A DNA stretch of 41,662 nt from Microcaldota archaeon (GTDB taxonomy: Archaea > Micrarchaeota > Micrarchaeia > Micrarchaeales > CABMGC01), in assembly GCA_021803425.1 (NCBI GenBank), contig JAJZLN010000004.1, positions 1-41,662 on the forward strand, given 5' to 3'. Positions 10,042 through 39,730 of this stretch are shown here, piece after piece (the first letter of the stretch is position 1; every line of letters starts with the position of its first letter). Below the pieces are notes generated by a model, which was given only the letters and a program-made list of their open reading frames with translations, was not told the DNA's origin and did not search any database. Both the position numbers and the translations under genes were made by a program.

Positions 10042-10070
10042 TTCTATTCACCAATATCTAAAATAGCAGT

Positions 10071-18417: not shown

Positions 18418-18419
18418 TG

Positions 18420-19154
18420 CTACTGTACCTCCGGTTTATATCCTTCCCTCTCTATCTCCTCAATCAACTCCTTTCCGCCTTCTTTGACTATTCTTCCGTC
18501 GGTCATAACGTGTATGTACTGTGGATTCATATAATTAAGTATTCTGCTATAGTGGGTTATTAGAAGAATGCCGGCATTGCTTTTTTCCCTGAATCTATTT
18601 ATGTTATCTGCAACCACCCTTACTGCATCAACATCAAGCCCAGAATCGGGTTCGTCGAGTATTGCAATCTTAGGATTTAATATTGACATTTGGAGTATCT
18701 CCATCTTCTTCTTTTCGCCTCCAGAAAATCCGTAGTTCAAGGATCTTCCTATGAGATCTTCCCTTAGCTTCAGGCTTTCCGAATTGTTTTTTATCTCACT
18801 CATGAATTCACGGTAGCCTAGCTTGGGCGCACTGATCGCCCCTCTCGCAGAATTAAGGAAATTGATTATTCCAAGCCCTTCTATCTCAATTGGATTTTGG
18901 AATTGCATGAATATTCCAAGCTTCGCACGCTCATTTACCGGCATCTCATTAATTCTTTTGCCGTCTGCAATTATCTCGCCATCAGTAATCTTGGTGCCAG
19001 GATGGCCCATAATTGATTTGGCAAGCGTGGTCTTTCCTGAACCGTTTGGGCCCATAAGCACATGCAATTCGCCGCCGCCAATTTTCAGATTCACTCCTTT
19101 TAAAACGCTTCTGCGTTCTGCGTCCGCATATAGATTCTTTATCTCCAATATCAT
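18420..19154 (-). CDS. sufC: Fe-S assembly ATPase SufC
   Basis: An ABC-type ATPase of 244 residues, the energy module of the SufBCD scaffold. Seen: Walker A GPNGSGKTT, Q-loop FMQFQNPIEIEG, signature FSGGEKKKMEI (the SufC form), Walker B AILDEPDSGLDVDA and H-loop LITHYSRIL. The long reading frame upstream of ATG 19154 lies inside sufD and is not SufC-like. GGTGA overlapping the sufD stop provides the ribosome binding site, with 4 nt between the genes. Confidence 0.96.
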   Translation of the reverse strand: MILEIKNLYADAERRSVLKGVNLKIGGGELHVLMGPNGSGKTTLAKSIMGHPGTKITDGEIIADGKRINEMPVNERAKLGIFMQFQNPIEIEGLGIINFLNSARGAISAPKLGYREFMSEIKNNSESLKLREDLIGRSLNYGFSGGEKKKMEILQMSILNPKIAILDEPDSGLDVDAVRVVADNINRFREKSNAGILLITHYSRILNYMNPQYIHVMTDGRIVKEGGKELIEEIEREGYKPEVQ

Positions 19155-19158
19155 GTTT

Positions 19159-20400
19159 TCACCTACTTTTCCATATTTTATTTGCAGTAATTCCGGGAAT
19201 ATTGCCGGGTATTCCGCCTTCAAGCCTGTCCAAAATAATTGACATAGCAATTTCGCTTGAAATTCCGTCATTCATCTTTGATACATATTTTGATACAAAT
19301 GCAATTATGAACATTCTCTTTGCTACTTTTTCCTCAAGACCGCGCGACTGCAGGTAGAAAAGCGCATCTTCATCTATCGGTGAAGTTGCCGCTGAATGCG
19401 TAGCTTTTACTTCGTCGCTATAATCTATGGACATGTCTGGAAGCGCATCTATATGTGCATCCTTACTTAAGAGGATGCCTCTTTCAGTTATTCTTGAAAG
19501 GCACCCTTTAGTGCCATTTTCCACTTTGGCGAATCCTTTAAGCATGCATTGTGATGAGCCATCAAGAACTGCGCCAGAATCAAGGATGGCAGCGCTCCTC
19601 CGCTTTTTGTTTGTTATGGCTGTGCTTATATCAAATCGCTGGTTTTCAGCTCCAAATGCAAATTCTGTTATTTCAGCATTGCTGTCTATTCCATCAGAGT
19701 CTACATGCGTGCGTGTTTTTGTGGCACAGCCTCCACTGTACACGAAATTTGCTTTGAGCTTTGATCTGTCATGCAGGCGCGCCTTGTATAAGTTAACTAT
19801 ATTCACTCTGTCGTTTTCATTATGTACCATGTTGATTTCCACATTGGAATCCTCCCCGATATTTGTTTCATGAAGCGCTGTTACAAGAGAATCCGCATCT
19901 GAAGCAGATGCAAAGAATTCCAGTACGGTTAAATCAGATTTCTTTCCGGTTTTGACCATAACCTGCACATTCAGACTGCACCTGTTTACAAATAAAAGAT
20001 TTACTTTCTTGTGCTCCGAATCGCCTAACTCTATAAAGATGAAGCGGTTTGAATTTGCATTTGAAAATGCGGCAAGCTTGTCTTCAGAGCTTTTAAACAT
20101 TTTATCGGTAAGCGATGCTATCCCAACGCTCTCTGAATCCGATATTTTTAAATCCTTATCAAAACTTTTTACTGAATGGTCTGATATTATTGCATTGAAT
20201 TTTATTTTTGTTTTCTCTGCAATATCCAATGCCAATAATTCAGTTTCAGACTCATTCTTGTTTATATCGACTTCATCTTCTGCACCAAATCCGTCAAGCT
20301 TGATATTCACATAATATTTCTTGTAAATTTCGTTAGTTTCGATTGGCAGGGATCTATAATATGCATTGGCTTCATCTACAAATTCCTTATAAGTATACAC
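19159..20400 (-). CDS. sufD: Fe-S assembly scaffold protein SufD
   Basis: A 413-residue SufD-like subunit that pairs with SufB. The N-terminal part is polar and divergent. The C-terminal two-thirds shows the SufB/D beta-helix: GCATKTRTHVDSDGIDSNAEIT, KGFAKVENGTKGCLSRITERGILLSKDAHIDALPDMSID, then DEVKATHSAATSPIDEDALFYLQSRG, the conserved SufB/SufD tail with its His. GTG at 20400 is chosen because AGGTGA lies 6 nt before it. It follows sufB by 18 nt. Confidence 0.9.
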   Translation of the reverse strand: MYTYKEFVDEANAYYRSLPIETNEIYKKYYVNIKLDGFGAEDEVDINKNESETELLALDIAEKTKIKFNAIISDHSVKSFDKDLKISDSESVGIASLTDKMFKSSEDKLAAFSNANSNRFIFIELGDSEHKKVNLLFVNRCSLNVQVMVKTGKKSDLTVLEFFASASDADSLVTALHETNIGEDSNVEINMVHNENDRVNIVNLYKARLHDRSKLKANFVYSGGCATKTRTHVDSDGIDSNAEITEFAFGAENQRFDISTAITNKKRRSAAILDSGAVLDGSSQCMLKGFAKVENGTKGCLSRITERGILLSKDAHIDALPDMSIDYSDEVKATHSAATSPIDEDALFYLQSRGLEEKVAKRMFIIAFVSKYVSKMNDGISSEIAMSIILDRLEGGIPGNIPGITANKIWKSR

Positions 20401-20418
20401 TTCAAGTCACCTAAAAAA

Positions 20419-21831
20419 TCAACCGACTCCTTTGCTAGTATCCAATTTTATTAGTCTCTTCAACTCCAATGAATATTCAACCGGAAGCACTTTTGTTAGG
20501 TCATCTATAAAACCGAGCACTATCATTGCAGTAGCATCATCTTCTGAAATTCCCCTGGACATAAGGTAAAATATCTCATCATCGCTTATTTTTCCCACCT
20601 TAGCCTCGTGGCTTATCACTGCGTCGCTCCTGTTTATCTGATTATAAGGGTAAGTATTTGTTTTGGCATTTTCATCAAGCAGGAGAGCATCGCATGATAC
20701 ATGCGATTTAGCGCCCTCGGCATTCTTTGCAACATGAAGCAGACCCCTGAATGTTGTAACGCCTGTGCCCTTTGACACGCTTTTCGATATGATCTTCGAA
20801 GTTGTATGGGGCGCAAGATGGTATATCTTGCCTCCAGAATCCTGTATCTGCCCATCACCGGCAATTGCTATGGAAATTACTTCGCCACGCGAGCCTTCAC
20901 CCTGCAGCATTATGGAAGGATATTTCATGTTTATCCCGCTCCCTATGTTGGCATCTATCCATTCCACTCTGGCATTTTTGGCTGCATGTGCACGCTGGGT
21001 TACAAGATTATAGACATTCTTGGACCAATTTTGTATGGTAACGTACCTTATATGTGCATTTTCCATGGCTACAAGTTCAACTACAGCTGCATGCAATGAA
21101 TTAGCAGCATATACCGGAGCAGTACATCCTTCCAGATAGGTAACATCTGCACCTTCATCTGCTATTATAAGCGTCCTTTCAAACTGGCCAGAATTCTTTG
21201 CATTTATCCTAAAATATGCATTGAGTGGCATGGGTACTTTGACTCCTTTTGGCACATATATGAAACTGCCTCCTGACCAAGTAGCGGTATTCAATGCTGC
21301 AAACTTATTGTCATTTGCAGGCACTTCTTTGCCCCAATATTTTTTCATAAGATCGGGATATTTTTTAACTGCAGTATCCGTATCAGTAAATATTACACCG
21401 AGCTTCTCCAACTCCAAATTTATATGCGAATAAACTACAGAGCTATCAAACTGCGCCTCTGCTCCGGCAAAGAATTTCCTTTCGGCTTCTGGGACCCCCA
21501 ATTTATTGAATGTCTGCTTTATATCGTCAGGCACGTTTTCCCATTTGTTAGCCTCCTTGGCATTAGGATTCATATAATAATAGAAATCGTCATAATTTAT
21601 TTTGCTTAGATCCGCACCCCATGAAGGAGTAGGCTTACTCTCGAATATATTGAATGCCGCAATTCTCTTTTCAAGCATCCATTCCGGTTCATTTTTTATT
21701 CTTGAAATCATACGCACTACATTCTCAGAAAGCCCCTTTGGAAAATCTTCATACTCAACGTCCTGATAAAAGCCGTACTTTTCAATATATTCGTTTCTCT
21801 CAACTACCTCTTCTAATCCTTCATTTACCAT
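20419..21831 (-). CDS. sufB: Fe-S assembly scaffold protein SufB
   Basis: The 470-residue core scaffold on which the cluster is built. Seen: WSGGSFIYVPKGVKVPMPLNAYFRIN, the ERTLIIADEGADVTYLEGCTAP block with the conserved cysteine, NWSKNVYNLVTQRA, GSRGEVISIAIAGDGQ, and the C-terminal ISHEAKVGKISDDEIFYLMSRG with the Glu/His cluster-binding region. ATG 21831 is the right start: GGGTG 9 nt upstream fits a ribosome binding site, and extra upstream codons of the open frame lie inside the regulator gene. It follows the regulator by 4 nt. Confidence 0.96.
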   Translation of the reverse strand: MVNEGLEEVVERNEYIEKYGFYQDVEYEDFPKGLSENVVRMISRIKNEPEWMLEKRIAAFNIFESKPTPSWGADLSKINYDDFYYYMNPNAKEANKWENVPDDIKQTFNKLGVPEAERKFFAGAEAQFDSSVVYSHINLELEKLGVIFTDTDTAVKKYPDLMKKYWGKEVPANDNKFAALNTATWSGGSFIYVPKGVKVPMPLNAYFRINAKNSGQFERTLIIADEGADVTYLEGCTAPVYAANSLHAAVVELVAMENAHIRYVTIQNWSKNVYNLVTQRAHAAKNARVEWIDANIGSGINMKYPSIMLQGEGSRGEVISIAIAGDGQIQDSGGKIYHLAPHTTSKIISKSVSKGTGVTTFRGLLHVAKNAEGAKSHVSCDALLLDENAKTNTYPYNQINRSDAVISHEAKVGKISDDEIFYLMSRGISEDDATAMIVLGFIDDLTKVLPVEYSLELKRLIKLDTSKGVG

Positions 21832-21835
21832 CTGA

Positions 21836-22171
21836 TTACACCCTGATCTTATTAAGTGATGAAAATGCGCAGCCAAACTGGTTCAGAGAAGCGCATAAAG
21901 AGCATATGTACTTGTTAACTTCGTCTTTTTCTCCTGCAGCAATCTTAGCCGAGAATTTTTTAATCTCGGATTCATCGAAATTTTTGATTAAATCCCTGAT
22001 TTTATCTGAATAAGAGCCATTAAGGTATTTGCTTACTGCTGCCTGCGTAACGCCGAGAATCCCTGCGATCCTCTCTTCGCTTAGATTATAATTTCTGCTC
22101 AGTTCCAAAGCCATCGCAATCCTTACAGATGGTACGATCTCTTTGGATGCTCTTACATATCCGTTAACCAT
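21836..22171 (-). CDS. HTH transcriptional regulator with C-terminal cysteine cluster, first gene of the suf operon
   Basis: A 111-residue DNA-binding protein. Seen: EIVPSVRIAMALELSRNYNLSEERIAGILGVTQAAVSKYLNG, a helix-turn-helix closely resembling an archaeal regulator family with the same VTQAAVSxYL recognition helix (COG2522-like). The C-terminal segment YICSLCASLNQFGC carries Cys-x2-Cys-x7-Cys, able to bind a metal or Fe-S cluster. Being first in the operon and 4 nt from sufB, it probably senses Fe-S status and represses the operon through the palindrome just upstream. That is inference, analogous to SufR/IscR but unrelated in sequence. GTG 22180 is an alternative start. Confidence 0.8.
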   Translation of the reverse strand: MVNGYVRASKEIVPSVRIAMALELSRNYNLSEERIAGILGVTQAAVSKYLNGSYSDKIRDLIKNFDESEIKKFSAKIAAGEKDEVNKYICSLCASLNQFGCAFSSLNKIRV

Positions 22172-25611: not shown

Positions 25612-26331
25612 CTACTGCACCTGATCCGAAAAATCCGCTGTTGTCTGGGCTACATTATCGGCACTGGCATCTGTACTTTTTTCTTCGACACTGTTTTGGG
25701 CATATGTCGGAGCAGATTCCGCAGCAGGTTCTCCTGCAGCCATATTGACTCTCATAAGAATCCTTATTGATTCCATTTTTGCCGCAATGGCACCCAACAT
25801 TATACCAACCTTGTTCAGCTCCTTGATAAGGCTCTTGCCAAAATTGACTTCGAGATCAATGAGTATCTTGTGCATTGAATCGACATTATCAAATTCTTCC
25901 CTGAGCTTTTCACTCATTTTATCGGTATTGGCTATGTTTACATAATACGCCTTACGCCCGTATGTTTCACCGCATAATTTTTCTACAGACTCATTTAACT
26001 TCTTCTTCATTTCTGCAACCCACCCAGCATCTACGTCATTCTTGAACACATTAAGTGTAAAGAAGGAATCTCTCATAAGCTTATCTATTTCATTGTTCTC
26101 TTCTTTAAAGTTCTTCTCATTAAGTGACGGATTTTTTTGCATTTCTGATTTTATTTTGTCGACTAGACTTGAAATCCTTCCGTAGTCCTGAGCTATGTGC
26201 TTCATAGTAGCTTCCTCAAGGGCGGATTTGATTGCGGGGTTGATTATTTGCGCTGCAGGATCCCCTTGTCTCTCAACACTTGACGTGATATTTGCTTCCT
26301 TAACGGGAGCTTTAAAGTCTGGAGCAGGCAT
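25612..26331 (-). CDS. Hypothetical coiled-coil protein downstream of the giant secreted protein
   Basis: A 239-residue soluble protein of unknown family. The central part is charged and helical, with likely coiled coils (for example MKKKLNESVEKL and MSEKLREEFDNVDSMHKIL). It ends in a low-complexity Ala/Glu/Ser/Thr-rich tail. No signal peptide or membrane segment is visible. ATG 26331 is chosen over the in-frame TTG at 26343 because GGTGTG lies just upstream of it. It follows the giant gene by 41 nt on the same strand, so the two are probably one operon, which hints at an intracellular partner for the giant protein's short basic cytoplasmic tail. No function is claimed. Confidence 0.65.
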   Translation of the reverse strand: MPAPDFKAPVKEANITSSVERQGDPAAQIINPAIKSALEEATMKHIAQDYGRISSLVDKIKSEMQKNPSLNEKNFKEENNEIDKLMRDSFFTLNVFKNDVDAGWVAEMKKKLNESVEKLCGETYGRKAYYVNIANTDKMSEKLREEFDNVDSMHKILIDLEVNFGKSLIKELNKVGIMLGAIAAKMESIRILMRVNMAAGEPAAESAPTYAQNSVEEKSTDASADNVAQTTADFSDQVQ

Positions 26332-26372
26332 TTTACACACCAATGTAATTGTAGCGGATTTGATATTAAATA

Positions 26373-29300
26373 CTATCCTTTAGCCCTCCTACGTTCAGCT
26401 CTGGACTTGGCTCTTTTATTAAGCCTGCCCTTGAATACCAAAGAGAGCGCGATTATTGAGATGCCCAAAAGAAGCATTATTAATGCGTCGAAGTTGCCTA
26501 TTGAAAGCAGTATCGATCCTATCGGCACGGTTGTGCCGGTCTCTGTTGGTGACCATGTGTAGCTGAATGCGTTGAATGTGACTGACTGAGAGCTGCTTGG
26601 GTTTGCAGCCTCACTTATAGGGGATTGCTTTGCCTGTATCGGCTGCGTAGGAGGTGTGCCATAGTATACTGCAGTTATCTTTGCATAGCCTGTGCCGCAT
26701 GCAACCACATTTGCGCCGAACTGGCCTCCAGGGTATACAGGCGCTATTGCAAAGAGGCCAAGCTGGCTTGTGCATATTCCAAGCCCATTGGAAGTGAACG
26801 GATAGCAGTATTGTGTAAGGCCCTGGGCAGTTGCAGGGCATTGCGCAGGAGGATTTTGGCCAGGTCCCATATTATTTATGTTGCAGAGGGTATAGCTTTG
26901 CGTTATAGGCGCAAGAAGACTGTTTGCCGGAGGAGAGCATGTATTCATGCCATTGTATGATGGATTGTACGTTATCACATTTGGCGTTATAGAAGGGGAG
27001 CCGTCTGGGAAAAGGTAGTTTGGATTGTATTGAAGCCCTGCAATTATTGGATTTGCAAGCGTGCATCCGCTATCGCTACTTGATCTTATGCTGTTGAATG
27101 CGCACGACTGCGCATCTACAGGATCTTCAACAGAATTATATCCTATTGTATTTAGATTAGTGTCGTAGTAAAGATATACGTTTCCGCTAGATAGAGGGAT
27201 TGGAGTTGTTGAAAGAGGCGGTGTCCATGAAACTATGCCATTTGCATATAACGTGGTCTCGTTTGTATTAAGGGTGTTTACAGAAGGCACAACATTGAAG
27301 TTAGTTATTTGGGTTATGTTTGATATATCTACGTCAAGAGGCATATAGACAATATTGTTGAACTGGTCATCGTATACAAACACAAGCCTGTGGTATCCGA
27401 ATGCTTGGAAATTAGGAAGGGCGGCAGGATCTCTTCCAGTCATGAGCAGGTTGAGCGAGATTGCGCTTGTAGGGTATTTGAACCAGTTGAAAAGCGCAAT
27501 GTAAAGCTTGTTTGTCGGAGTTGCAGAGAACAGGTCATTGACAGGATATGAGGGATTGGATTTTGCAAGCTCAGGAGGTATGCATGAGACTCCTGTGCAA
27601 GCATATGGCATGTTTTGCACTGATATGGTCTCGTATCCCGGAAGTTTTCCCTGCACATATGTATCTGAACCGTAGGTGTAGAAATTTATGGCGTTTATTG
27701 GGAGTTGTGAATTTGTTTGCGCAGACGTCGTTGAATTTATGTAGATTGTGCCGAACTGCCTGTTAGAGAGTATCGAATAGAGAAGCTGGCTCGGGAGTAT
27801 GACAGTTGAAAGATTTGCCTCATAGTACTGCGAAGTATTTATCTCAGATTGCGCATATGCATCGCCGCCGTTGATCTGCGCAACCTGCTGGTTGGAGTTT
27901 ATCTGAGGCGTGGTAGCATATGTATATACGGTTTGGGTTGAAGTAGATTGTTGATTTTGTGGGGCAGGACCAGTACAGAGACTTAACAGTGATGGTTTCT
28001 GATACTGTACATTGAACGTTTCAGCATAAGTATATGAATATGGAAATACGATGTATCCAGAGAGTATGCTCTGAAGTTCGGTTCCGAGAGGAGGAAGCGT
28101 CTGTGGCTGGTAATTTATATTTAGTGTTGAAGGAGCACTTGACTGGAATTGGCTGAGAAGGCTCTGAGCTGCATTAGATATGACTGATGCACAGTTCCCG
28201 TTTCCCCCATTCCCACTCCCTGAATTTTCTATATCCTGTGGGGTACAGCTTGAAGAAGATCCGGACCCGCTTCCGGAGCCGCCGCCAAGCCCGGCCAGTC
28301 CAGAGCCTGCCAAAGTATCAAGAGTATAAGCCTGATATCCACCTATATTTTCGTCAAACTGGAATGGGTTTGGCAAAATGTAGACTGGAGGCATTAAATT
28401 TTCTACATTTGGATTGTATGTGCATGTTCCGGAAGAGTATTGATCATAAGTATAGCAATTATAAGTCGCTTGTGATGGATTCAGACCTCCAATCTGTTTG
28501 GTATAGTTCTGCGGATTTAGGCTTGCAGTTATTAATTCGCCATAGCCATTTGCATATTGTATTGAAGACCCTCCATTGTTTTGTATGTCATATCTAGACC
28601 TAATGTATAGTGAAGCTGTGTTGTTGTATGAAACTGAAAAGCCAGTATCGATGAGTGGAACTGGGCCGCAAGCATGATGCCCTGTTCCGAATAGAGTAAT
28701 TGAGATGCCAGGAACTGCGCCAGGATAGCAGCTCCAAGATAGCATTTCTGGACCAATTGGGCTTAGAGAGCCGGGATATGTCGGATCTGGAGAATAGCAA
28801 GGGGTAGAGCTAGAAAATCCAGCTTGACGAGTTGTTGAGAATCCTTGAGCAACTTCAAGCGTATTTGGATTGCATAAATTTATTATTTCTTGAGCATCAG
28901 CACCACTTGTTATGTTTGCGGATATAATCCAGCCAAATGGAGGATAACCGAATGGACTTGATTGAGTATACCTTGCCAAGGAAGTGTGTGAATTATCTGT
29001 ATAATACCAAAGATCATTGTAGTAAGTTGGATTTATAGGCACATCGATTCCGCTTGTATTTATTACCCTTAAATCCAATATGTTAAATCTGATTCCGGGA
29101 CCACTGTTACATCCAAATATCCCATTTACGCATGGTTCTCCAGCAACGCCATACCAGTCATCAAGCACATACAAATAGCCATTGACATCCGCTATTCCCA
29201 ATGGATGATGATAGGTCTGTTTATCAAGTTGATCTTGTGAAGCAGATGAAGGTAAATTATTATCATAATTTTGTATTATGGTTTTCATAATGCTATCAGC

Positions 29301-32300
29301 AGCAGTACATGAGCTTTTGCAATTGGCATTTATTCCGTAAAGTCCGCCGTTCGCGAAATAATCTATGATATTTGCTGCAGGTGATTCTGTACTTCCTACC
29401 TGCTGACTGCCCTGAACTGTTGGATTTGTAAATGAGGGAGTAGAGTAAAGGACATTATCAGAAGTAAAACTCAGACCTATTTGACTTTCGTATGCAAGGT
29501 CTGCGCCGCTGAATTCGAGTATATTTCCTGAACCAGGGGCTGCAAGATAGACCTGATCACCATATGGAGATGCTGCAATCTCAGGCCATGGAGGCGAAGA
29601 ATCCTGAGACTGTATAAAATCATAAAAATAAGAATGAATAGCGCAATTGCCTGGAGGCGCAGCGCCCGAATATGGAGTAAGGCCAAGGAGATTACATATA
29701 GGCGCTGCTGATATGCTTATTGGACCACCACCTACTGCATTGGCTATCTTTACAAGCCAATAGTTATTAGGCTGGCCTGAAGATGAAACGTAGCCGGTTA
29801 TGAACACATCTCCAAAAAGATCAGAGGTTACATTTACTGGTGTGAATGTTGCACCAGGTTCGTAGTTCTGTATCTGGCTCAATATTGGATATGAAAATGA
29901 TATTGGTATAGCATTTACAATATATAGATTCTGGCTCTGAAGCTTCTGTACGTTGTTCCAGTATGTATTCCAATTTTGCGTGAATGCTGATTGCGAGCTT
30001 GCCGAAGGAACAGTATTCGGCGGGTACAATGATGTATTATAGTATCCGCTAGGTATTTGCTTTAGTATGTAAAGATTTATTCCAGGATATGATATTGAAC
30101 TCTGGTACTGCTGCTCCTGAGGAGTAAGTGATTGTGACTGAGACTGTGAAGAGGATGCAAGGCCAACAGGTACAGGATAGTTTAGCCATTGTTTAATATA
30201 CGTTCCAGCGGCATCATTTGGCAGCTGGCAGCCACTAGGAGACGAACACGATTTTCCAAGTGCTTCTAGATCATTAAAGAATTGTATATTGTTGTTGCTA
30301 TTGATGCATTCTGGAGGATTTACACCAATGTAGTTGCAAGTGCCCCATGCGCTGAAATCATTAATGTAATCACTAGGAGAGTTCAGTAAACACAATATAT
30401 ATTCTCCTGGGCATGCGCCTGATTGCTGCTTATTCTGAAGTACGAGATATATATCTGATGACTGTTGACCAACTGAAATACTTCCGACGGTCCCCAATAT
30501 TCCATCTTTTGCGTTATTAAAGGCTGTTGGTTTGTTGCCAGAAAATAAAGGATTTGGTTGTGTTGTTTGCCAAGGACCAGAACCAATGTAAAGCGGATCG
30601 TAGAATGCAGTTGCTCCTGAAGAAAGAAGCGGGTCTCCTTGATAACCGCTGAAATATTGGTTTCCCCAATTGTTGTTTTGGTAATAGGCCCATAAAGCAA
30701 GGAAGTATATGCTTGCCTGCTCATTTCCACCATTAACTCTCATTTCACACAGCACGTCCTGGAAGAATTGGTACTCGGTTATTGTAGTCTGGCTTGGTGA
30801 AGGAAGACAGTTGTCCTGGCTTGAGGAAGATTGGGATGCTTGGGGAGACTGTCCAAGCACGAATGTGTATCCACTAGGTATTGATGCGATTGATGTTGGA
30901 TTAAGTATCTGGGTTGTTAAATATGAAGAGGTACTTGATATACTGGACCCTTGAACTTGGCTTCCTGAAAGAGCACTATAAGCAGCTTGAGCTTGTGCTT
31001 CTCTAACTGGAGCATTGCATTCCCCATACATACCGGTTCCACCGACATTTGGAGTATTATAACCATTGCATTTTTCAAAATCCTGCATGAATGCTATTGC
31101 AGCTTGGGTTGGATCTGTTCCAGAATAGAATGATGTGCTACCTAACCTGGAAATTATTGTTTGTATTTGTGCTGTTAGGTCGGCTTGCTCATTTCCAGTA
31201 ACTAATGATGATTCAGTGTATCCACCACCTGTAGTAAAACAGACCATACCGAAGCAATTTGAGCCCGTATTTTCTTCTACATTAATATTCTCATAACTTT
31301 GCCCGCCGGTTTCTTGAGCTGCATTTCCCATTATGCCTGCAGCTTCTACTTGGCTAAATCCAGCACTAATAAGAGCATCCCAAATCATTTGTGCATTTGA
31401 AGAAGAAGTTGAAGATGTTGTAGTTGATGCACCTTCAGAAGAACCAGCGAATTCCAAGCCGATCTGCTGCTGCGGATTTTGGAAGTCTACTTGAGCAGGA
31501 TTGCCCGCAAGTCGTAGAGGATTGCTTAAAAGGTTGAAATAAGAAAGAGAGCTGCTTCCAGAAGAAGGCGCGTAATTACTTAGGAAGAAGCCCATTGAGT
31601 TTATAGTAAACGGCTCTATCACATTCTGAGGGATTTTATAGTTCTGAGGGCTGTAGATATCATAGGATAGGCTCAATGAGTCTCCTACAGTAGGATTGAT
31701 TACGTTTGCATTGTACACAAAATAAGGTAATATGTCTAAATTCATACCGCTGCTGCCAATAGGGAATGGTATTTGGGCGCTGCCTATGCTGTCAAGAGTA
31801 GCAGTCGAAGTTATGGTATATGGATATGAACAGGTAGCAGAAGGTACTTGAAGTCCACCGCCGGGCGCATTCTGCTGGAATTGAGAGAGAAGATATGTAT
31901 GTAGCGCATCCGGTTGATATGTTGTAGCCCACATTTGCATTTGTGTTATTACAGCAGGAGTCACACCAGGAAGATCCAATTGCGCACTGCTTGAATACAT
32001 CATGACAGTTTGTAAGTCATTAACTAATGTGGAAAAAGAGGCACCACTGACAAGATCTGATCCAATGTCTGCTACTTGACCTTGATTTGTAGGGGAACTG
32101 CCCGTCAAGTCGCCGCCTGTTAAAAGATCGGATATCGTACTGACCCCATCGGCTGAGCTTGAATATATGTTATAAGATATACTTGTTCCGGTTGACGCAC
32201 CGCCATTAATAGAATATTGTTGTATTGAAGCCCCAGATGCTGGAAAATAAGTGTAAGTACTGCATGGATTAGGATATGTAGTTGAACTCACCTGAATTTC

Positions 32301-33227
32301 CAACGGATTCCATCCTTTGAAATATGTTCCTCCTGAAGTTTGCGCCTCTGCTACTGCAAGGGCTTCTAGAAAATCAATATTTGTTGTAGTAACGGGATCG
32401 CCGGCAGCAGATAATGCCTCTGCAAAAAATGCATCTGGAAACGAAGGATTGCTTGATAATGGATTTGGCTGCGCGCATGACGATGCAGTTGGGGTGTATG
32501 TACCAGATGCAGTCGAAGTTACTCTAAGTTGTCCATTATAATTGCTTCCTAACGCACCTGCATCTGCATACAGCCCATTCCATGTCCACAGTCCCTGCTG
32601 CCCGTACACAGGCGCTTCATCGAATATGTATGAATTTGTGTTGAATGAAGTCGAAATGTAGTTGCCGTCTGGAGTTGTTACCATTGGAGAGTATCCTAGA
32701 TTTGTAAGCGTAAATTGCGCTACATTCTGGAGGTTTACATTCACAGCTACATCAGAAGAACTTGGTTGCTGAGTTGGATCGGAAGGGAGTGTGACAGAAT
32801 CAGACAAGATTACTTGTGGAGCTTGAGGGTTTGGATTGGAAGCTTCCTGGCAAAGATTGCCTGCAGGATGCCAATTTCCAGGAGAACCTGGAGTTGAAGT
32901 TGATATAAGCTGCGCATCTGTCGGATTTGGCAGCTCTGGAGGATAAGGGCATGTCAAAAGATATAGCGCATTGTTTGCATTGTATTGGTATACATTCAAT
33001 GCAGGAGAAAGAGGATATGGAGTCTGCTGCGGGGTTGAAAGCGGACTTGGAGCAAGTGCCTGCTGATCTGAAGCTCCGAACGGTAATTGCAGTGTTTCAG
33101 TCGCAGAACAAGTAGTTGAGGATGAAGATGTTGAACACGGCAGCTGTTGCTGGGCGTGCACAAGATTTGCGCTGAGTACGAGCATGAATGCAAAAAGCAT
33201 AGTTATGATTATATAGTTCATGCGCAT
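26373..33227 (-). CDS. Giant secreted, C-terminally anchored protein with phage-tail-lysozyme-like domain
   Basis: A 2,284-residue protein rich in Ser, Gln, Asn, Tyr and Pro. It begins with a signal peptide (MNYIIITMLFAFMLVLSANLVHA, ending AQQQ) and ends with one membrane helix (DALIMLLLGISIIALSLVF) and a basic tail, so nearly all of it lies outside the cell. Around residues 610-760, IWDALISAGFSQVEAAGIMGNAAQETGG and later segments resemble the phage tail lysozyme family, with Glu639 as the candidate catalytic acid. A central region (VFITGYVSSSG..., GDQVYLAAPGSGNILEFSG) has propeller-like strands. A Gly/Ser linker lies near residue 1650. Cysteines are numerous. ATG 33227 is preferred over TTG 33242. 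The role, perhaps surface contact with a host cell, is inferred. Confidence 0.82.
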   Translation of the reverse strand: MRMNYIIITMLFAFMLVLSANLVHAQQQLPCSTSSSSTTCSATETLQLPFGASDQQALAPSPLSTPQQTPYPLSPALNVYQYNANNALYLLTCPYPPELPNPTDAQLISTSTPGSPGNWHPAGNLCQEASNPNPQAPQVILSDSVTLPSDPTQQPSSSDVAVNVNLQNVAQFTLTNLGYSPMVTTPDGNYISTSFNTNSYIFDEAPVYGQQGLWTWNGLYADAGALGSNYNGQLRVTSTASGTYTPTASSCAQPNPLSSNPSFPDAFFAEALSAAGDPVTTTNIDFLEALAVAEAQTSGGTYFKGWNPLEIQVSSTTYPNPCSTYTYFPASGASIQQYSINGGASTGTSISYNIYSSSADGVSTISDLLTGGDLTGSSPTNQGQVADIGSDLVSGASFSTLVNDLQTVMMYSSSAQLDLPGVTPAVITQMQMWATTYQPDALHTYLLSQFQQNAPGGGLQVPSATCSYPYTITSTATLDSIGSAQIPFPIGSSGMNLDILPYFVYNANVINPTVGDSLSLSYDIYSPQNYKIPQNVIEPFTINSMGFFLSNYAPSSGSSSLSYFNLLSNPLRLAGNPAQVDFQNPQQQIGLEFAGSSEGASTTTSSTSSSNAQMIWDALISAGFSQVEAAGIMGNAAQETGGQSYENINVEENTGSNCFGMVCFTTGGGYTESSLVTGNEQADLTAQIQTIISRLGSTSFYSGTDPTQAAIAFMQDFEKCNGYNTPNVGGTGMYGECNAPVREAQAQAAYSALSGSQVQGSSISSTSSYLTTQILNPTSIASIPSGYTFVLGQSPQASQSSSSQDNCLPSPSQTTITEYQFFQDVLCEMRVNGGNEQASIYFLALWAYYQNNNWGNQYFSGYQGDPLLSSGATAFYDPLYIGSGPWQTTQPNPLFSGNKPTAFNNAKDGILGTVGSISVGQQSSDIYLVLQNKQQSGACPGEYILCLLNSPSDYINDFSAWGTCNYIGVNPPECINSNNNIQFFNDLEALGKSCSSPSGCQLPNDAAGTYIKQWLNYPVPVGLASSSQSQSQSLTPQEQQYQSSISYPGINLYILKQIPSGYYNTSLYPPNTVPSASSQSAFTQNWNTYWNNVQKLQSQNLYIVNAIPISFSYPILSQIQNYEPGATFTPVNVTSDLFGDVFITGYVSSSGQPNNYWLVKIANAVGGGPISISAAPICNLLGLTPYSGAAPPGNCAIHSYFYDFIQSQDSSPPWPEIAASPYGDQVYLAAPGSGNILEFSGADLAYESQIGLSFTSDNVLYSTPSFTNPTVQGSQQVGSTESPAANIIDYFANGGLYGINANCKSSCTAADSIMKTIIQNYDNNLPSSASQDQLDKQTYHHPLGIADVNGYLYVLDDWYGVAGEPCVNGIFGCNSGPGIRFNILDLRVINTSGIDVPINPTYYNDLWYYTDNSHTSLARYTQSSPFGYPPFGWIISANITSGADAQEIINLCNPNTLEVAQGFSTTRQAGFSSSTPCYSPDPTYPGSLSPIGPEMLSWSCYPGAVPGISITLFGTGHHACGPVPLIDTGFSVSYNNTASLYIRSRYDIQNNGGSSIQYANGYGELITASLNPQNYTKQIGGLNPSQATYNCYTYDQYSSGTCTYNPNVENLMPPVYILPNPFQFDENIGGYQAYTLDTLAGSGLAGLGGGSGSGSGSSSSCTPQDIENSGSGNGGNGNCASVISNAAQSLLSQFQSSAPSTLNINYQPQTLPPLGTELQSILSGYIVFPYSYTYAETFNVQYQKPSLLSLCTGPAPQNQQSTSTQTVYTYATTPQINSNQQVAQINGGDAYAQSEINTSQYYEANLSTVILPSQLLYSILSNRQFGTIYINSTTSAQTNSQLPINAINFYTYGSDTYVQGKLPGYETISVQNMPYACTGVSCIPPELAKSNPSYPVNDLFSATPTNKLYIALFNWFKYPTSAISLNLLMTGRDPAALPNFQAFGYHRLVFVYDDQFNNIVYMPLDVDISNITQITNFNVVPSVNTLNTNETTLYANGIVSWTPPLSTTPIPLSSGNVYLYYDTNLNTIGYNSVEDPVDAQSCAFNSIRSSSDSGCTLANPIIAGLQYNPNYLFPDGSPSITPNVITYNPSYNGMNTCSPPANSLLAPITQSYTLCNINNMGPGQNPPAQCPATAQGLTQYCYPFTSNGLGICTSQLGLFAIAPVYPGGQFGANVVACGTGYAKITAVYYGTPPTQPIQAKQSPISEAANPSSSQSVTFNAFSYTWSPTETGTTVPIGSILLSIGNFDALIMLLLGISIIALSLVFKGRLNKRAKSRAERRRAKG

Positions 33228-33989: not shown

Positions 33990-36674
33990 CTAGACAGTAT
34001 TAGAGCTGGCTGTGTTGGAGCCGGTTGAATTGGAAACAACCGGATTAGAGGCAATTGAATTAGCAGCAGCGCCAGGCACATTGGCTGCTGAAGTGTAGTT
34101 TGACGTGCTGTTGTATATTATCTTGTATATCCTGGTGTCAGGATTGTAGTATACGGGATCAAGTGTTGCATTCCTGTTGTCCCACCTGCAGTAGAAGCTG
34201 TTGCAAAGGAACAAAAGATCCATCATATTGCTCTGCGCAAATCCCTGCGCGAATACATATCCTCCTGTCAGGTTTATGAAGAACCCCGGCCTAGGCGCAT
34301 CCGAATATTCGACCAGCATCATCTCCTTGTTTGTCACGTTGAACTGCTTTGACTGGTTAGTATATATGAAAGCGCCAGTGCCCTGATCGTAGAGCTCGGC
34401 GCCTGCGAAAGGCATTATCTGGTTTGCAGAATACTGGACGTATGCAAACATGCTTGAAAGCGAATTGGACGTATTTAAAGTCCTGATATTGAGAACAAGA
34501 TACGGATACTGCTGCCCGGGATTTATTTGGAACAGAAGGTCCCTTGAAGTGGAGTTTATGATCTGCTCTGAATATCCCTGCAGCTGCGAATACCCGAACA
34601 TCACGGGGCTTTCGGTTATGTTAGCCTCAGTATATATGCCCTGGGTCTCTCCGAGCCACGTCGACCTTGCGACAAGATAGTCCGGCTTTCCATTTATCCT
34701 GCTTTCAAGGAATGATGCATTAGTCCTGTTGCTGAGCAGCCACGCAGCATATGGATCCGCCTTTGTGGCGTTCTGCGATCCTACGCTGTCTGTTACGGAT
34801 ATTCGATGTGCAACCCCCTCAACCACTGAGCCGTCAGGCCAGAGAGTAAGCACCACGCTGTTGGAAGGAGAATTTGTGCCGAGCCATTGCATTGCGCCCA
34901 GGAATTCGGGATTTATGCTGTCTGCCTGCGAAAGGCTGTTTGCGTATATTATTCCATAATGCCAGAGCATCGAGAGCACAACTATCAGGAAAAATGCGGA
35001 TGCGGACACTGAAAACCAGTGGAGCTTCATATGCTCATCGTTTTTTGACTTCATCAGGATGTAGTATGCAATAATAGCTATTACAGATATTGCCAATATT
35101 ATGTAATTGAGGATGTTGGTTATGAAAGACATAATTGGATTTGAACCGAGAAGTACAATTTCATGCAGCAACAGGTTTGGCACTATAATTATTGCAGAGA
35201 AGGATATGAACTTTTTTATTTTACCGCTTGCCTTGAGGGAATAAAGTATTAGCCAATATACGGTATATGCGGATAAAATCGCAATTGGTATTGACACAAG
35301 AGAATTGAATCTTATTATGTGCATCTGCAGATACGCGGTGAGTACGAAATATGACGCAATTACCGCCATCGGAACATTAAGGCTGAAGTGTATTCTAGGA
35401 TTTCCTTTAAGGAAGCCGCCTCCTGAATCGTATATCTGCATGAAAAAATAGGGTATAAAGCATATGAAAAGAAGGATTATTCCGAGTATGCCATATCCCG
35501 ACCAGAAAAAGCTGTTTATGGATGAATATATTGCGGAGCTTGGAATGTTGTTGTGAAGAACAGTCATTGACATTGCAAGCGCAGGAAGCGAAGTATAAAG
35601 CTCAGTTCCGAAGCTGGTGAATATGAATGAATAGGAAGGCGGCTGAAGCTCCTGGATTGTGGATCCGAAGGAACCTGGGGGCGTTATGAAACCATTTCCT
35701 ACGAATACATTATATACAATTGTTGGTTCGGCAAAGTAGAATGCCACAAGACCAAGGATTAGCCCTCCAAGAATAAATGCGGTCCTGTATTCCCGAGAGC
35801 GCATTATTGCAAGGATATTGTTTGATACGTAATAAACAATGAGCCAGAAGGCTACGAGTGCAACGTATACATAGATGAAGCTTGGGCCAACTAGCTGCTG
35901 GCCTGGAATGAACCCTGTTGCTCCTACCGCGCTTGCCAGTATGTACCACGCTATTATCGACATGAGGATGTATTTTCCGTCATTTATCAGTTTTTCGTTC
36001 CTGAATATGAACGCGGAAACCATCAGCACTATGAATGCAAACATTATGGTCGCATCGGCAAAGGACGACCCGTTCCAGACAAAGTTTGCGCACAGAAGCG
36101 CTATTGCGGCTCCTGCCGCGAAGATCGCCTTCCTTTTTTCGGTGTCCTGTTTGAAGACCTCGATGAAAAGCACTATAGATATGAGAAGAGGGAATGTGAC
36201 GAATACGTCTCCCCTGTATATAAGCGCGCTTGTCCTTGCAGCATCGCCCATGCTGAGCGCAACGAATGCCATTGTAAGCAGGCCAAGAAATTTGTCCTTG
36301 CTAAGGTATCTTGATATCAGATATGCGCCCAAGACATCAAGGAGGCCGAATACTACAGGAATAAGGCGCATCACAGTGTAATAGCTTACGCCGAAATACC
36401 TGAGTATTGCATATGGTATGAGCGTAACCCAATACACGCCCTTCGCTTCGGCCACCGGGGTGTGGCTTGGCCAGCCAGACAGATACTGGAGCTGGGGCAT
36501 GACGAAGTTGTTGCTTACAGTTTCCGTGATCACGGTGAAGTAGTAGAAGCCGTCGGGTTCGTAGAATCCGTAATACTGCAGCATCGTGGTCCTTACGAGT
36601 ATGGCTACGGCTATTATTACCAGTACAAGCACTATGAATACCAGGCTCTCGGTCTTTAAAATTTCCTTCTTCAC
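33990..36674 (-). CDS. aglB: AglB/STT3-like oligosaccharyltransferase, divergent
   Basis: A polytopic membrane enzyme of 894 residues that transfers lipid-linked glycan to Asn in secreted proteins. About 12-13 membrane helices are followed by a ~290-residue extracellular domain. The N-terminal loop has YEPDGFYYF (Asp41, metal-binding DxD-like site), the second acidic site is RGDVF (Gly155-Asp156), and VAEAKGVYWVTLIPY is typical of the family. The position of the WWDYG sequon-binding motif reads TLWPDGS near residue 612. The C-terminal tail is low-complexity Ser/Asn/Thr. The start is GTG 36674. It is the last gene of the operon with topA and trmI. The giant Asn/Ser/Thr-rich protein nearby is a plausible substrate (inference). 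Confidence 0.82.
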   Translation of the reverse strand: MKKEILKTESLVFIVLVLVIIAVAILVRTTMLQYYGFYEPDGFYYFTVITETVSNNFVMPQLQYLSGWPSHTPVAEAKGVYWVTLIPYAILRYFGVSYYTVMRLIPVVFGLLDVLGAYLISRYLSKDKFLGLLTMAFVALSMGDAARTSALIYRGDVFVTFPLLISIVLFIEVFKQDTEKRKAIFAAGAAIALLCANFVWNGSSFADATIMFAFIVLMVSAFIFRNEKLINDGKYILMSIIAWYILASAVGATGFIPGQQLVGPSFIYVYVALVAFWLIVYYVSNNILAIMRSREYRTAFILGGLILGLVAFYFAEPTIVYNVFVGNGFITPPGSFGSTIQELQPPSYSFIFTSFGTELYTSLPALAMSMTVLHNNIPSSAIYSSINSFFWSGYGILGIILLFICFIPYFFMQIYDSGGGFLKGNPRIHFSLNVPMAVIASYFVLTAYLQMHIIRFNSLVSIPIAILSAYTVYWLILYSLKASGKIKKFISFSAIIIVPNLLLHEIVLLGSNPIMSFITNILNYIILAISVIAIIAYYILMKSKNDEHMKLHWFSVSASAFFLIVVLSMLWHYGIIYANSLSQADSINPEFLGAMQWLGTNSPSNSVVLTLWPDGSVVEGVAHRISVTDSVGSQNATKADPYAAWLLSNRTNASFLESRINGKPDYLVARSTWLGETQGIYTEANITESPVMFGYSQLQGYSEQIINSTSRDLLFQINPGQQYPYLVLNIRTLNTSNSLSSMFAYVQYSANQIMPFAGAELYDQGTGAFIYTNQSKQFNVTNKEMMLVEYSDAPRPGFFINLTGGYVFAQGFAQSNMMDLLFLCNSFYCRWDNRNATLDPVYYNPDTRIYKIIYNSTSNYTSAANVPGAAANSIASNPVVSNSTGSNTASSNTV

Positions 36675-36714: not shown

Positions 36715-37296
36715 TCAAGGTTTAAATGGATTTGCTTTGCTCGCAAACATGAGGTATGCAGTGTGCCATATCCCCTTTGTCGACGGTCTTACGCCCTCCT
36801 CCCTGACGAGCATGTCGCGCACTATCACTTCTACAGTGTGCATGTCGCAGAAGCCGAGCTTCACAAGCCTTGCATTGAACTTCTTGACCTGCTCCATGTG
36901 CGGCAAATATCCCACAACCACGCCGCCGGGCTTCAGCGCTCTCTTTGCGCTTGCAAGCGCCTTTTCCGAAGATGGCATGTCAAGCGCGATTATGTCGACG
37001 TCCCTCTGGCTGATTCCTTTTGTCACGTTGCGGTTTATGAACTCTATGTTGGTGAGGCCGAGCATCACCCTGTTCTTCTCAGCTATCTCTATGAAATCCT
37101 CACGTGTATCATAGCTGTACACCTGCTTGCACACCCTTGCAAGGCTAAGCGCAAGCCAGCCGCTGCCTGTGCCTGCATCAACGCAGACGCTATCCTTCCC
37201 CGCTCCCGAATACGCGATTATCATGCCTATGTCCTTTGGCAGTATGACCTGCGGTCCTCTCTTCATCCTTCTGTACATTTTTGGATATATGAACAT
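36715..37296 (-). CDS. trmI: TrmI-like tRNA (adenine-N1)-methyltransferase, N-terminal domain missing
   Basis: A 193-residue SAM-dependent methyltransferase. Seen: RGPQVILPKDIGMII, the diagnostic TrmI segment, then VDAGTGSGWLALSLA (SAM loop), YDTREDFIEIAEKN, DIIALDMPSSEKAL, PGGVVVGYLPHMEQV, and the C-terminal substrate strands. TrmI makes m1A58 (and m1A57 in archaea) in tRNA as a tetramer. Normal members are about 250 residues with a small N-terminal beta domain. Here the protein starts 3 nt after topA and lacks it. The codons upstream are topA, so no longer form is possible. It probably remains active, since all catalytic motifs are kept. Confidence 0.85.
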   Translation of the reverse strand: MFIYPKMYRRMKRGPQVILPKDIGMIIAYSGAGKDSVCVDAGTGSGWLALSLARVCKQVYSYDTREDFIEIAEKNRVMLGLTNIEFINRNVTKGISQRDVDIIALDMPSSEKALASAKRALKPGGVVVGYLPHMEQVKKFNARLVKLGFCDMHTVEVIVRDMLVREEGVRPSTKGIWHTAYLMFASKANPFKP

Positions 37297-37299
37297 GCG

Positions 37300-39498
37300 T
37301 CATCTTCCCTTCTTTTTTTCTGCGGCCTTTTTGGATTCTTTTGGCTTAGAGGTCTTTGGCTTTTTAATCGGCTTGACCGCTGCGGATCTCTTTGTAACTT
37401 GAACAGCTTCAGCCTGAAGTGCAGGCTTGGACTCCGCAGTGGAATCCTGTTCGGATTTACGGTTTGCCCAGTCCTTCTTTGTCTCGCAATTAGGATCAAG
37501 ATCCATCTCGAAAGGCCTTTTCCCTTTTCTGAACACCTTTATTATTGGGGTGTTGCATAGCTTGCACGTCTTACCTGTTGAGACTATCTTCGCGCTCTGC
37601 GGCACGGAGTAGGTTATTGTGCATTTTGGCCAGTCCGAGCAGCCTATGAAGTTCTTTCCGGTCTTTGACCTTCTCAGTATGAGGTTGCCTCCGGACTTGC
37701 ACTGGCCCATTATGTCGCTGTTCTGGCTCTCCTTAAGCCCCTTCATGAGAGCGTTGCCTATATCTGCCTCATTCTTTGCGAACTTCCCGGTTATCATTGT
37801 TATGAACTCTTTTCCCTCGCTTATGACCTCGGATTTGGACGCCTCCCCTTTTTGTATCTTCTCCATGTCCTTTTCAAGCTTCCTTGTAAGATCCTCATCA
37901 AGTATATCTGGGCAATATGATGAAAGCGCTTCATATACGCTGAGGCCGAATTCCGTGACGCTTATGCTTGACCCGTTTATGTAATCTCTCCTGAATAGCG
38001 TATCTATCACCTCTGCCCTGGTCGCCTTGGTGCCGAGATCCTTGTCTTCCAACAATGATATCAGGCTAGCCTTTGTATATCTTTTTGGAGGAAGGGTCTT
38101 AAGGCTCTTAAGCTCTATCTTGTCGGGCTTTATCTTTTCGCCGACATTGAAATCCGGAATCTGCGCCTCTTTGGGTTCATAGTACCTATAGAAATCCAGC
38201 CATCCGCGGTACGTTGTCCTTGACCCACTTACGCTGTATTCCGAATCGCCTATGGTGATCATTACATGTCGATACTCCGACTTTGAATATTCGGCGAAGC
38301 ATGCAAGGAACCTGCTTGTTATTAAGTCATATATCCTTCTCTCCTCTTCGGAAAGATTCTTTGGTATTTCGCCGGTTGGATAGACTGCGGGATGCGCCTC
38401 GTCATCCTTGATCCCTTCGGCAGGCCTGAATCTGGACCCCTTCACCAGGATGGATGCGCGCTCTGCGTAATCGTCAGACCTTGAAAGGGAGGTTATTATC
38501 CTTGGAAGATTCAGGGTTTGTGGAAGCTTCTGCGATGACGTCCTTGGATATGATATATAGGATTTCTCGTACAAAGACTGGGCTATTGCAAGGGTGCGCG
38601 ACGGATCTATCCTGAATACCCTGCTTGCCTCGACCTGCAGCGAGGTAAGATCGAAGGGAGGGAAAGGCCTGCCCGACTTCTCCAGCCTCTCTACCTTCTT
38701 TACCTCGGCAATGCCGGAATTGACATTATCAAACGCCTTTTCGGCAGCGGATTTTTCATATATCTCATTTTCCTTTGGCTCAAAATTTATTCCGCGCACT
38801 GTAGCGACTACCTTCCAGTACGGCTTAGACACAAAATTCTTTATATCGATTTCCTTCCTTGATAGTATGCCCAGCGCAGGCCCCTGGACCCTCCCTATGC
38901 TGAGCGTCTTGTGTATGCCCCTTGATGAAAGCGCCCTCATAAGCGCCCTGCTCAGGTTTATGCCCCACATCCAGTCTACCCTGTGCCGCGTCTCACCGGC
39001 ATCGAAGTTCTGCGAATCGTAGCTATTCAGGTTTTCATATGCATTGAGAAGGTCAACGTTTGTCGTAGTTGAAAACCTCATCCTCATGACGTTGCTTCCC
39101 GAAATCTCCGAATTGACGTTCTTGTTAATGATGTGCTTTATGATGTTGGTGCCTATCACTGTCCCTTCAAGATCATAATCGCATGCATTTATGAAGAAAG
39201 AGCATTTTTGGCCTACGGACTCTATCGCATCCAGGTATTTCTTTGTGAAATACGCGCCTTTGTTAACCTTGTAAGATGGAGCCCACTCTATGTCAAATGT
39301 TGGTATTTTGCTTGGACCTGTCTGCGTAAGAGTGAATAGATGGCCTGCAGCTGCGGTTATGAACAGCGTATCTTCCCCCTTTTGGACTATAAAATATCTT
39401 ACCCCGTTTATAGTCTCGGTGTGCGGCCTTGAATCACCGAGAGACATTGCTACCCTCACTGCTACGCTGGGCTTCTCGGCAAGTATCAACTTATTCAT
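37300..39498 (-). CDS. topA: Type IA DNA topoisomerase
   Basis: A 732-residue topoisomerase that relaxes negative supercoils through a 5'-phosphotyrosine. Seen: N-terminal TOPRIM KLILAEKPSVAVRVA, the acidic FINACDYDLEGTVIG motif, GRVQGPALGIL, the active-site SYISYPRTSSQ (Tyr near 314), EGIKDDEAHPAVYPTG, and a C-terminal pair of zinc fingers (CKSGGNLILRR...CSDWPKC and CKLCN...C). A Lys/Pro-rich tail ends in KKAAEKKKGR. ATG 39498 is the correct start, since the longer open frame upstream overlaps the small membrane-protein gene. Reverse gyrase features are absent. It is followed at 3 nt by trmI. Confidence 0.94.
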   Translation of the reverse strand: MNKLILAEKPSVAVRVAMSLGDSRPHTETINGVRYFIVQKGEDTLFITAAAGHLFTLTQTGPSKIPTFDIEWAPSYKVNKGAYFTKKYLDAIESVGQKCSFFINACDYDLEGTVIGTNIIKHIINKNVNSEISGSNVMRMRFSTTTNVDLLNAYENLNSYDSQNFDAGETRHRVDWMWGINLSRALMRALSSRGIHKTLSIGRVQGPALGILSRKEIDIKNFVSKPYWKVVATVRGINFEPKENEIYEKSAAEKAFDNVNSGIAEVKKVERLEKSGRPFPPFDLTSLQVEASRVFRIDPSRTLAIAQSLYEKSYISYPRTSSQKLPQTLNLPRIITSLSRSDDYAERASILVKGSRFRPAEGIKDDEAHPAVYPTGEIPKNLSEEERRIYDLITSRFLACFAEYSKSEYRHVMITIGDSEYSVSGSRTTYRGWLDFYRYYEPKEAQIPDFNVGEKIKPDKIELKSLKTLPPKRYTKASLISLLEDKDLGTKATRAEVIDTLFRRDYINGSSISVTEFGLSVYEALSSYCPDILDEDLTRKLEKDMEKIQKGEASKSEVISEGKEFITMITGKFAKNEADIGNALMKGLKESQNSDIMGQCKSGGNLILRRSKTGKNFIGCSDWPKCTITYSVPQSAKIVSTGKTCKLCNTPIIKVFRKGKRPFEMDLDPNCETKKDWANRKSEQDSTAESKPALQAEAVQVTKRSAAVKPIKKPKTSKPKESKKAAEKKKGR

Positions 39499-39520
39499 TT
39501 GAAAACCGGTTGCGTTATTG

Positions 39521-39730
39521 TTACCTTCTTTTCCTTGTCTCTGGCCTTGGCTGCTCCTTTGGCTTTGAAAGGCTGTGCGACATGTAGAACCCAAGAAGTA
39601 TTGCTAATATTGCGGATACATAAAACAGTGGCTGTATGTTTGCAATCAGGAATATCACGGCAAGTATGCTGAACACTATTATCCCAATTGCTATGAAAAG
39701 AAGGCTCTTTTCATCTTGTTGTTTGGCCAT
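39521..39730 (-). CDS. Small two-helix membrane protein
   Basis: A 69-residue protein with two hydrophobic segments (about 10-31 and 33-51) joined by a tight turn, and a strongly basic tail (KPKEQPRPETRKRR). The positive-inside rule would place both ends in the cytoplasm. No family is recognised. It is the first gene of the operon with topA, trmI and aglB. ATG 39730 follows GGTGT by 5 nt and a TATA box by about 30 nt. Its place before topA is the only clue to function. Confidence 0.7.
   Translation of the reverse strand: MAKQQDEKSLLFIAIGIIVFSILAVIFLIANIQPLFYVSAILAILLGFYMSHSLSKPKEQPRPETRKRR

Follow-up and report, generated by a model that had tools for sequence, protein, structure and literature searches.

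A predicted giant surface protein of Micrarchaeota with a phage-tail-lysozyme domain in a family of exchangeable hydrolase-type modules

Introduction

What would an archaeon do with a lysozyme of the phage-tail type on its surface? Muramidases, C-type lysozymes, transglycosylases and NlpC/P60 enzymes have bacterial peptidoglycan as their common substrate. The question is raised by a gene in the window, by which we mean the whole 41,662-nucleotide stretch analyzed here (contig JAJZLN010000004.1). The source organism is a Candidatus Micrarchaeota archaeon, a member of the DPANN; isolate names and the published habitats of cultured Micrarchaeota suggest an acid-mine setting. An earlier note on this DNA described a giant surface protein with a block resembling phage tail lysozymes, and envisaged either action on the envelope of another cell or a glycan-binding role.

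The giant gene and its product

A single 2284-residue frame spans positions 26373-33227, as the earlier note had it; the strand, left unstated there, is minus, the plus strand across this interval being full of stops. Hydropathy reveals the expected signal peptide and C-terminal membrane helix as segments at residues 1-26 and 2234-2270, from which the product is predicted to be a secreted, membrane-anchored surface protein. The described Ser/Gln/Asn-rich composition also holds (Ser 12.6%, Asn 8.2%, Gln 7.0%); Thr (8.1%) and Gly are abundant as well, and Lys and Arg make up 1.1 and 1.0%. In shared-block profiles, the family has a chassis of fixed order, namely signal peptide, blocks N and M, a short S motif, blocks P, Q and C and a transmembrane segment (TM), with slots for inserts between N and M (A), between M and S (B1) and between S and P (B2). 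In the source species, these slots hold an NPL-type domain, a PF18013 domain and a second NPL-type domain, respectively:

26373..33227, minus strand: giant surface protein gene, one unbroken frame of 2284 aa (ATG at 33227, last sense codon at 26376, stop at 26373-26375)
33150..33227, minus strand: signal-peptide-like N-terminus, residues 1-26 (hydropathy)
32529..33086, minus strand: chassis block N, residues 48-233 (profile built on A1)
32031..32435, within 31848-32465, minus strand: first NPL-type domain, in slot A, residues 265-399 (local profile, i-E 2.4e-25 once iterated)
31569..31838, minus strand: chassis block M, residues 464-553 (block profiles)
30972..31397, minus strand: phage tail lysozyme domain (PF18013) in slot B1, residues 611-752 (Pfam, gp13 alignment, AlphaFold, Foldseek)
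31311..31313, minus strand: codon of Glu639, the predicted catalytic acid (the same residue in all 5 archaeal and 14 phage copies; on gp13 Glu45)
30849..30914, minus strand: S motif, residues 772-793, the chassis strand that parts slots B1 and B2
30333..30773, within 30198-30875, minus strand: second NPL-type domain, in slot B2, residues 819-965 (local profile)
28968..30110, minus strand: chassis block P, residues 1040-1420, probably beta-propeller-like (block profile; PF06739 somewhere in the protein in 4 of 20 homologues)
28431..28970, minus strand: chassis block Q, residues 1420-1599 (block profile)
26508..27530, minus strand: chassis block C, residues 1900-2240, the most conserved part (C-terminal profile)
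26418..26528, minus strand: C-terminal transmembrane segment, residues 2234-2270, ahead of a basic tail (hydropathy)

The lysozyme domain

The block likened to phage tail lysozymes (residues 610-760) contains a match to PF18013 at residues 611-752 that covers almost the whole profile (positions 2-139 of 140) and is far beyond chance (Pfam scan; E 1.9e-14, score 54.4 bits where the cutoff is 28.2). It is the sole Pfam domain found across the giant. The source genome (881 kb, 93% complete) has no second copy of it, and no SLT domain (PF01464) was found there.

Five archaeal copies were aligned: those of the source giant, of the giants in G143, G148 and G153, and of a stand-alone frame in G172. 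Identity to the source copy is 42-66% among the archaeal sequences and 25-33% for 14 phage copies, so the acquisition must be old; Glu639, singled out in the earlier note, is invariant in all five and remains so when the phage copies are added. The G172 frame (L041, 10897-11658, plus strand; at most 254 aa) belongs to a sister genus, lies outside the giant chassis and has a hydrophobic N-terminal stretch.

A profile of the five archaeal sequences finds phage phi29 gp13 as its best PDB match (3csr, E 3e-6), with Glu639 aligned on Glu45. Glu45 has been suggested to be catalytic in gp13, and its equivalent in a GH184 muramidase, Glu41, is essential by mutation; gp13 Gln54 was named as a possible substrate-stabilizing residue (PMC10394673). 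In the profile alignment, the Gln54 position is Glu646 in the source giant and Gln in G143 and G172. An AlphaFold2 model of the domain (17 sequences) reaches pLDDT 79.9, falling to 51-56 in loops, and pTM 0.80; its helix H21-34 ends at Glu639, as expected of this family, in which the catalytic Glu closes helix 2. The top three Foldseek matches in the PDB are gp13 entries (probability 1.00) with modest scores (TM 0.51-0.56, E 2.7e-3 to 8e-3), and the fourth is a phage lytic transglycosidase. Fold prediction and conservation of the Glu in homologues had been named as the checks that could overturn the lysozyme reading; neither did. The domain at residues 611-752 is a genuine phage-tail lysozyme by family, and its predicted catalytic Glu is conserved.

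Single-sequence scans of genome contigs and viral contigs gave no match for the domain, whereas an alignment-based scan recovered its phage relatives. The nearest annotated phage matches (tblastn) are Bacillus-phage tail lysins, with a Salasmaviridae gene annotated as a peptidase. The archaeal domain is found in a single-copy chassis gene with archaeal neighbors, not in a tail or tape-measure protein of a phage genome, and the window carries archaeal replication genes (RFC, an archaeal helicase, topoisomerase and ATP-dependent ligase). Between the source species and the three other chassis carriers, PF18013 is the best conserved stretch (66/58/50% identity vs 36-57% for the chassis).

It is highly improbable that the domain is functionless phage or bacterial sequence captured recently by chance, or an artifact of assembly. 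Its sporadic occurrence (6 of the 301 genomes of the phylum) would fit such a capture, but the 2284-codon frame is unbroken, the same junction recurs in the independent assemblies G143, G148 and G153, and the age of the acquisition and the conserved Glu speak against it; the independent genomes largely refute it. Mis-assembly and contamination were rejected on the same architecture in independent genomes, the single-copy conserved chassis and the archaeal flanks.

A conserved chassis with exchangeable slots

The giant has a homologue in 55 of the 79 genomes of the family, and a profile of the C-terminal block detects the chassis in 103 of the 301 genomes of the phylum, mostly in one copy each. 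Alignment-based retrieval from named GTDB genomes yielded 25 homologous loci, 23 from 'Candidatus Micrarchaeota', one from Marsarchaeota and one from an 'uncultured archaeon'. Slot B measures 54-85 aa when empty (e.g., in G113, G124, G125, G160, G163 and G182) and 240-918 aa when filled. Empty slots occur in about a dozen relatives; slot function is therefore dispensable to the chassis.

B1 carries PF18013 in the source species (G000), G143, G148 and G153, so the domain does recur in other DPANN giants, a point on which the earlier note had asked for a search. In other giants, B1 is occupied by an SLT_3-like domain (18 copies in 17 giants) or by SLT (G121, G185, G186). The contents of B2 are NlpC/P60 (G119, G120, G151), a degenerate M23 (G121, G143, G153, G184) or the NPL domain (G000, G148, G155, G167, G170, G171, G180). 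B1 is the site of glycan-strand cutters, and NlpC/P60, M23-like or NPL modules are mostly in B2; as exceptions, an M23-like module in G146 and NlpC in G155 stand before the S motif, and NlpC occurs twice in G178. The SLT_3-like profile matches C-type lysozymes in the PDB (E 1.4e-5), its invariant Glu falling on the Glu of 'ESNFN' in lysozyme C, which is Glu35 of hen lysozyme. Most SLT_3-like modules lie below the Pfam cutoff, and they extend to a second family within the order, f2 (G187, in a giant of 2535 aa).

On a quick chassis tree, in which 13 of the 42 inner branches are poorly supported, presence or absence changed at least 3 times for PF18013, 10 for SLT_3, 4 for NlpC, 5 for NPL, 3 for M23-like and 2 for SLT modules. 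Within genus g1, slot content is unlike between nearly all species. The giant belongs to a modular family in which peptidoglycan-hydrolase-type domains are exchangeable on a conserved chassis.

The two NPL-type copies at residues 265-399 and 819-965 were absent from the earlier note. The domain has a helical start, the NPL motif and then YS..S.G.TA, and may resemble a phage 'NPLN' domain. Pfam has no match for it, PHROG gives only weak matches of undefined function, and tblastn against phage records found nothing; the AlphaFold model is of low quality (pLDDT 46) and finds no Foldseek match. For these reasons we do not call it a hydrolase; it could be another wall hydrolase or a binding domain.

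Active sites and selection

The catalytic Glu is kept in 5/5 PF18013 and 18/18 SLT_3-like copies; in the SLT_3-like alignment, 14 of the 93 well-filled columns are near-invariant. The Cys and His of NlpC/P60 persist in five of six copies, the second copy of G178 having lost both. The frame concerned (L108, 6879-12659, minus strand) encodes NlpC/P60 domains in tandem, an active-type one at residues 42-194 and one at residues 267-424 with FDPSG for FDCSG and no His. In the M23-like modules, the zinc ligands are replaced in 5/5, and these modules are probably not peptidases; together with the one NlpC copy, they may be binding-only.

Purifying selection acts more strongly on the slot domains than on the chassis: in close pairs, dN/dS is 0.05 and 0.02 for SLT_3, 0.10 for NlpC and 0.05 for SLT, against 0.04-0.25 for the chassis blocks of the same pairs, a comparison that covers these three families, PF18013 being without a close pair and saturated at synonymous sites.

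These patterns bear on whether the lysozyme-type modules are instead carbohydrate-binding tips of an adhesin that grips glycans of bacteria, archaeal hosts or biofilm matrix with little or no hydrolysis. Adhesin tips would tolerate non-catalytic versions such as the M23 modules and the aberrant NlpC copy, and would fit the absence of peptidoglycan from known hosts (PMC5498576). We nevertheless consider them unlikely, given that the Glu of PF18013 and SLT_3-like modules is invariant despite divergence to 33-66% identity, that NlpC copies tend to keep Cys and His, and that dN/dS is low.

Neighborhood and glycosylation

The genes around the giant are the following:

25612..26343, minus strand: charged helical ORF, 243 aa, 29 nt downstream of the giant; not conserved there in relatives
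33990..36674, minus strand: divergent STT3/AglB-type oligosaccharyltransferase, 894 aa, about 13 TM helices, upstream; syntenic in many relatives
36715-37296, minus strand: tRNA-methyltransferase-like gene, syntenic upstream
37300-39594, minus strand: topoisomerase I, syntenic upstream

The earlier note had a coiled-coil protein following in the same operon. A helical, charged ORF does follow; as a partner of the giant it was rejected, the kept neighbors being those upstream. The STT3-like gene is identified by PF02516 in 2 of 10 homologues (E 5.7e-7) and by a profile match to a PDB oligosaccharyltransferase (E 0.002). Its product in the source species is missed by Pfam and NCBIfam, though the gene is conserved beside the giant. 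Elsewhere in the window, two adjacent, dissimilar ftsZ genes occupy 9022-11117 (minus strand), and a SUF-type operon at 17173-21876 (minus strand) comprises consecutive genes for a class V aminotransferase, an ATPase and two SufB/D-type proteins.

An oligosaccharyltransferase adjoining the gene across relatives provides a link to glycoprotein coats, and the modules might act on a polymer other than peptidoglycan: a GlcNAc-containing exopolysaccharide, the glycoprotein glycans of Thermoplasmatales hosts, or the organism's own glycosylated coat in the course of remodeling. This seems quite improbable, as the unrelated families that converge on the slots (muramidase, transglycosylase, NlpC/P60 and M23) have peptidoglycan as their sole common substrate, and NlpC/P60 cuts peptide stems, not glycans.

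The giant itself has 11 N-glycosylation sequons (protein P0001) vs 36 expected by shuffling, all within residues 1064-1989; the first 1063 residues, which hold all slots, have none. Heavy N-glycosylation was rejected, sequons being depleted rather than enriched. With regard to an S-layer role, the giant is single-copy and widespread, has a C-terminal TM and lies beside the STT3-like gene, and is poor in sequons. It is doubtful, if conceivable, that the chassis forms the S-layer or serves as the main coat protein; the whole surface would then be armed with exchangeable muramidase-plus-peptidase pairs to breach or feed on specific bacteria, and the slots would evolve like phage tail-lysin modules, tracking bacterial targets.

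Function and target

No Mur ligase was found in the source genome (93% complete), which makes self peptidoglycan an implausible substrate and action on the envelope of another cell the most economical reading. Of the two roles first envisaged, envelope action is thus favored; binding alone is less well supported, since catalytic residues and purifying selection are kept over several unrelated hydrolase types. The exchange of wall-cutting enzyme types at one place points to a contact weapon or tool directed against bacteria, as a wall of the kind they would cut is not known from these archaea or from their known hosts. We put the probability that the giant is a surface-anchored, target-adaptable candidate peptidoglycan hydrolase used on bacteria at roughly 0.6; the enzymatic activity and the target are both predictions from sequence.

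In the proposed mechanism, the exported giant would be held by its C-terminal helix and display a muramidase on a long chassis. The gp13-like domain in slot B1, with Glu639 as general acid, would on contact cut the glycan strands of bacterial peptidoglycan, and the archaeon could in this way prey on bacteria, release nutrients, compete, or gain access to a bacterial partner. Exchange of modules would serve adaptation to changing targets. Counting against a bacterial target, the hosts of cultured Micrarchaeota are Thermoplasmatales without a cell wall or with only a single membrane (PMC5498576, PMC8975820), so that a peptidoglycan-bearing partner is not known. The whole-protein Pfam scan also detected no known cell-wall-binding domain in the giant. 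The clearly inactive modules and the empty slots of some relatives weigh on the same side.

If the modules are active, Micrarchaeota, so far partners of wall-less archaea, would also handle bacterial walls, and a surface scaffold would swap hydrolase modules as phages swap tail lysins. The DPANN-bacteria interaction becomes directly testable: each domain spans 120-160 aa, contains a Glu or Cys predicted to be catalytic, and is suited to expression on its own. The family is also a source of candidate peptidoglycan hydrolases, possibly acid-stable, and of an archaeal C-type-lysozyme-like domain that lies mostly under the Pfam cutoff.

Comparison with known systems

The closest known counterpart of the domain is phi29 gp13 (Morphogenesis protein 1; PDB 3csq, 3csr, 3ct5), whose lysozyme domain is homologous over its full length (Glu45/Glu639). 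Like the giants of G143 and G153, gp13 couples a glycan cutter to a LytM/M23-type domain; this partner is absent in the source species and inactive-looking in relatives. While gp13 forms a phage tail tip, the archaeal domain is inside a 2,284-aa membrane-anchored surface protein.

In Halogranum, archaeal peptidoglycan hydrolases that kill bacteria have been proven (Strock et al. 2025, PMC12352652), a precedent for archaeal enzymes that kill bacteria via the wall. They are defined by a catalytic and a cell-wall-binding Pfam domain; PF18013 can be taken as the former, and without the latter the giant would not qualify. It further differs from these hydrolases in being anchored and giant. The SPEARE and giant surface proteins of Nanohaloarchaeota (PMC10266531) are likewise giants of DPANN symbionts and are thought to serve host contact; no VirB4/TraG-like ATPase, Ig array or protease domain as in SPEARE was found in the source giant, in which the Pfam scan finds PF18013 alone.

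A murein-transglycosylase domain has already been reported in large DPANN proteins from Pacearchaeota and Woesearchaeota (PMC8204110; see also PMC9723730). Among them, fam00969 (Castelle et al. 2021, PMC8204110) is, like the giant as predicted here, very large, extracellular and equipped with a peptidoglycan-hydrolase-type domain, with proposed bacterial-wall contact. The two are set apart by domain (murein lytic transglycosylase vs PF18013) and lineage (Pace- and Woesearchaeota vs Micrarchaeota), and the slots of the giant exchange several families. A search of a limited set of literature returned no report pairing Micrarchaeota with peptidoglycan and lysozyme. Relative to that literature, what appears new is the lineage, the chassis and its swappable slots: no earlier description was found of the Micrarchaeota chassis, of slots open to multiple families, of modules of the phage-tail-lysozyme and C-type-lysozyme-like kinds, or of their second-slot partner.
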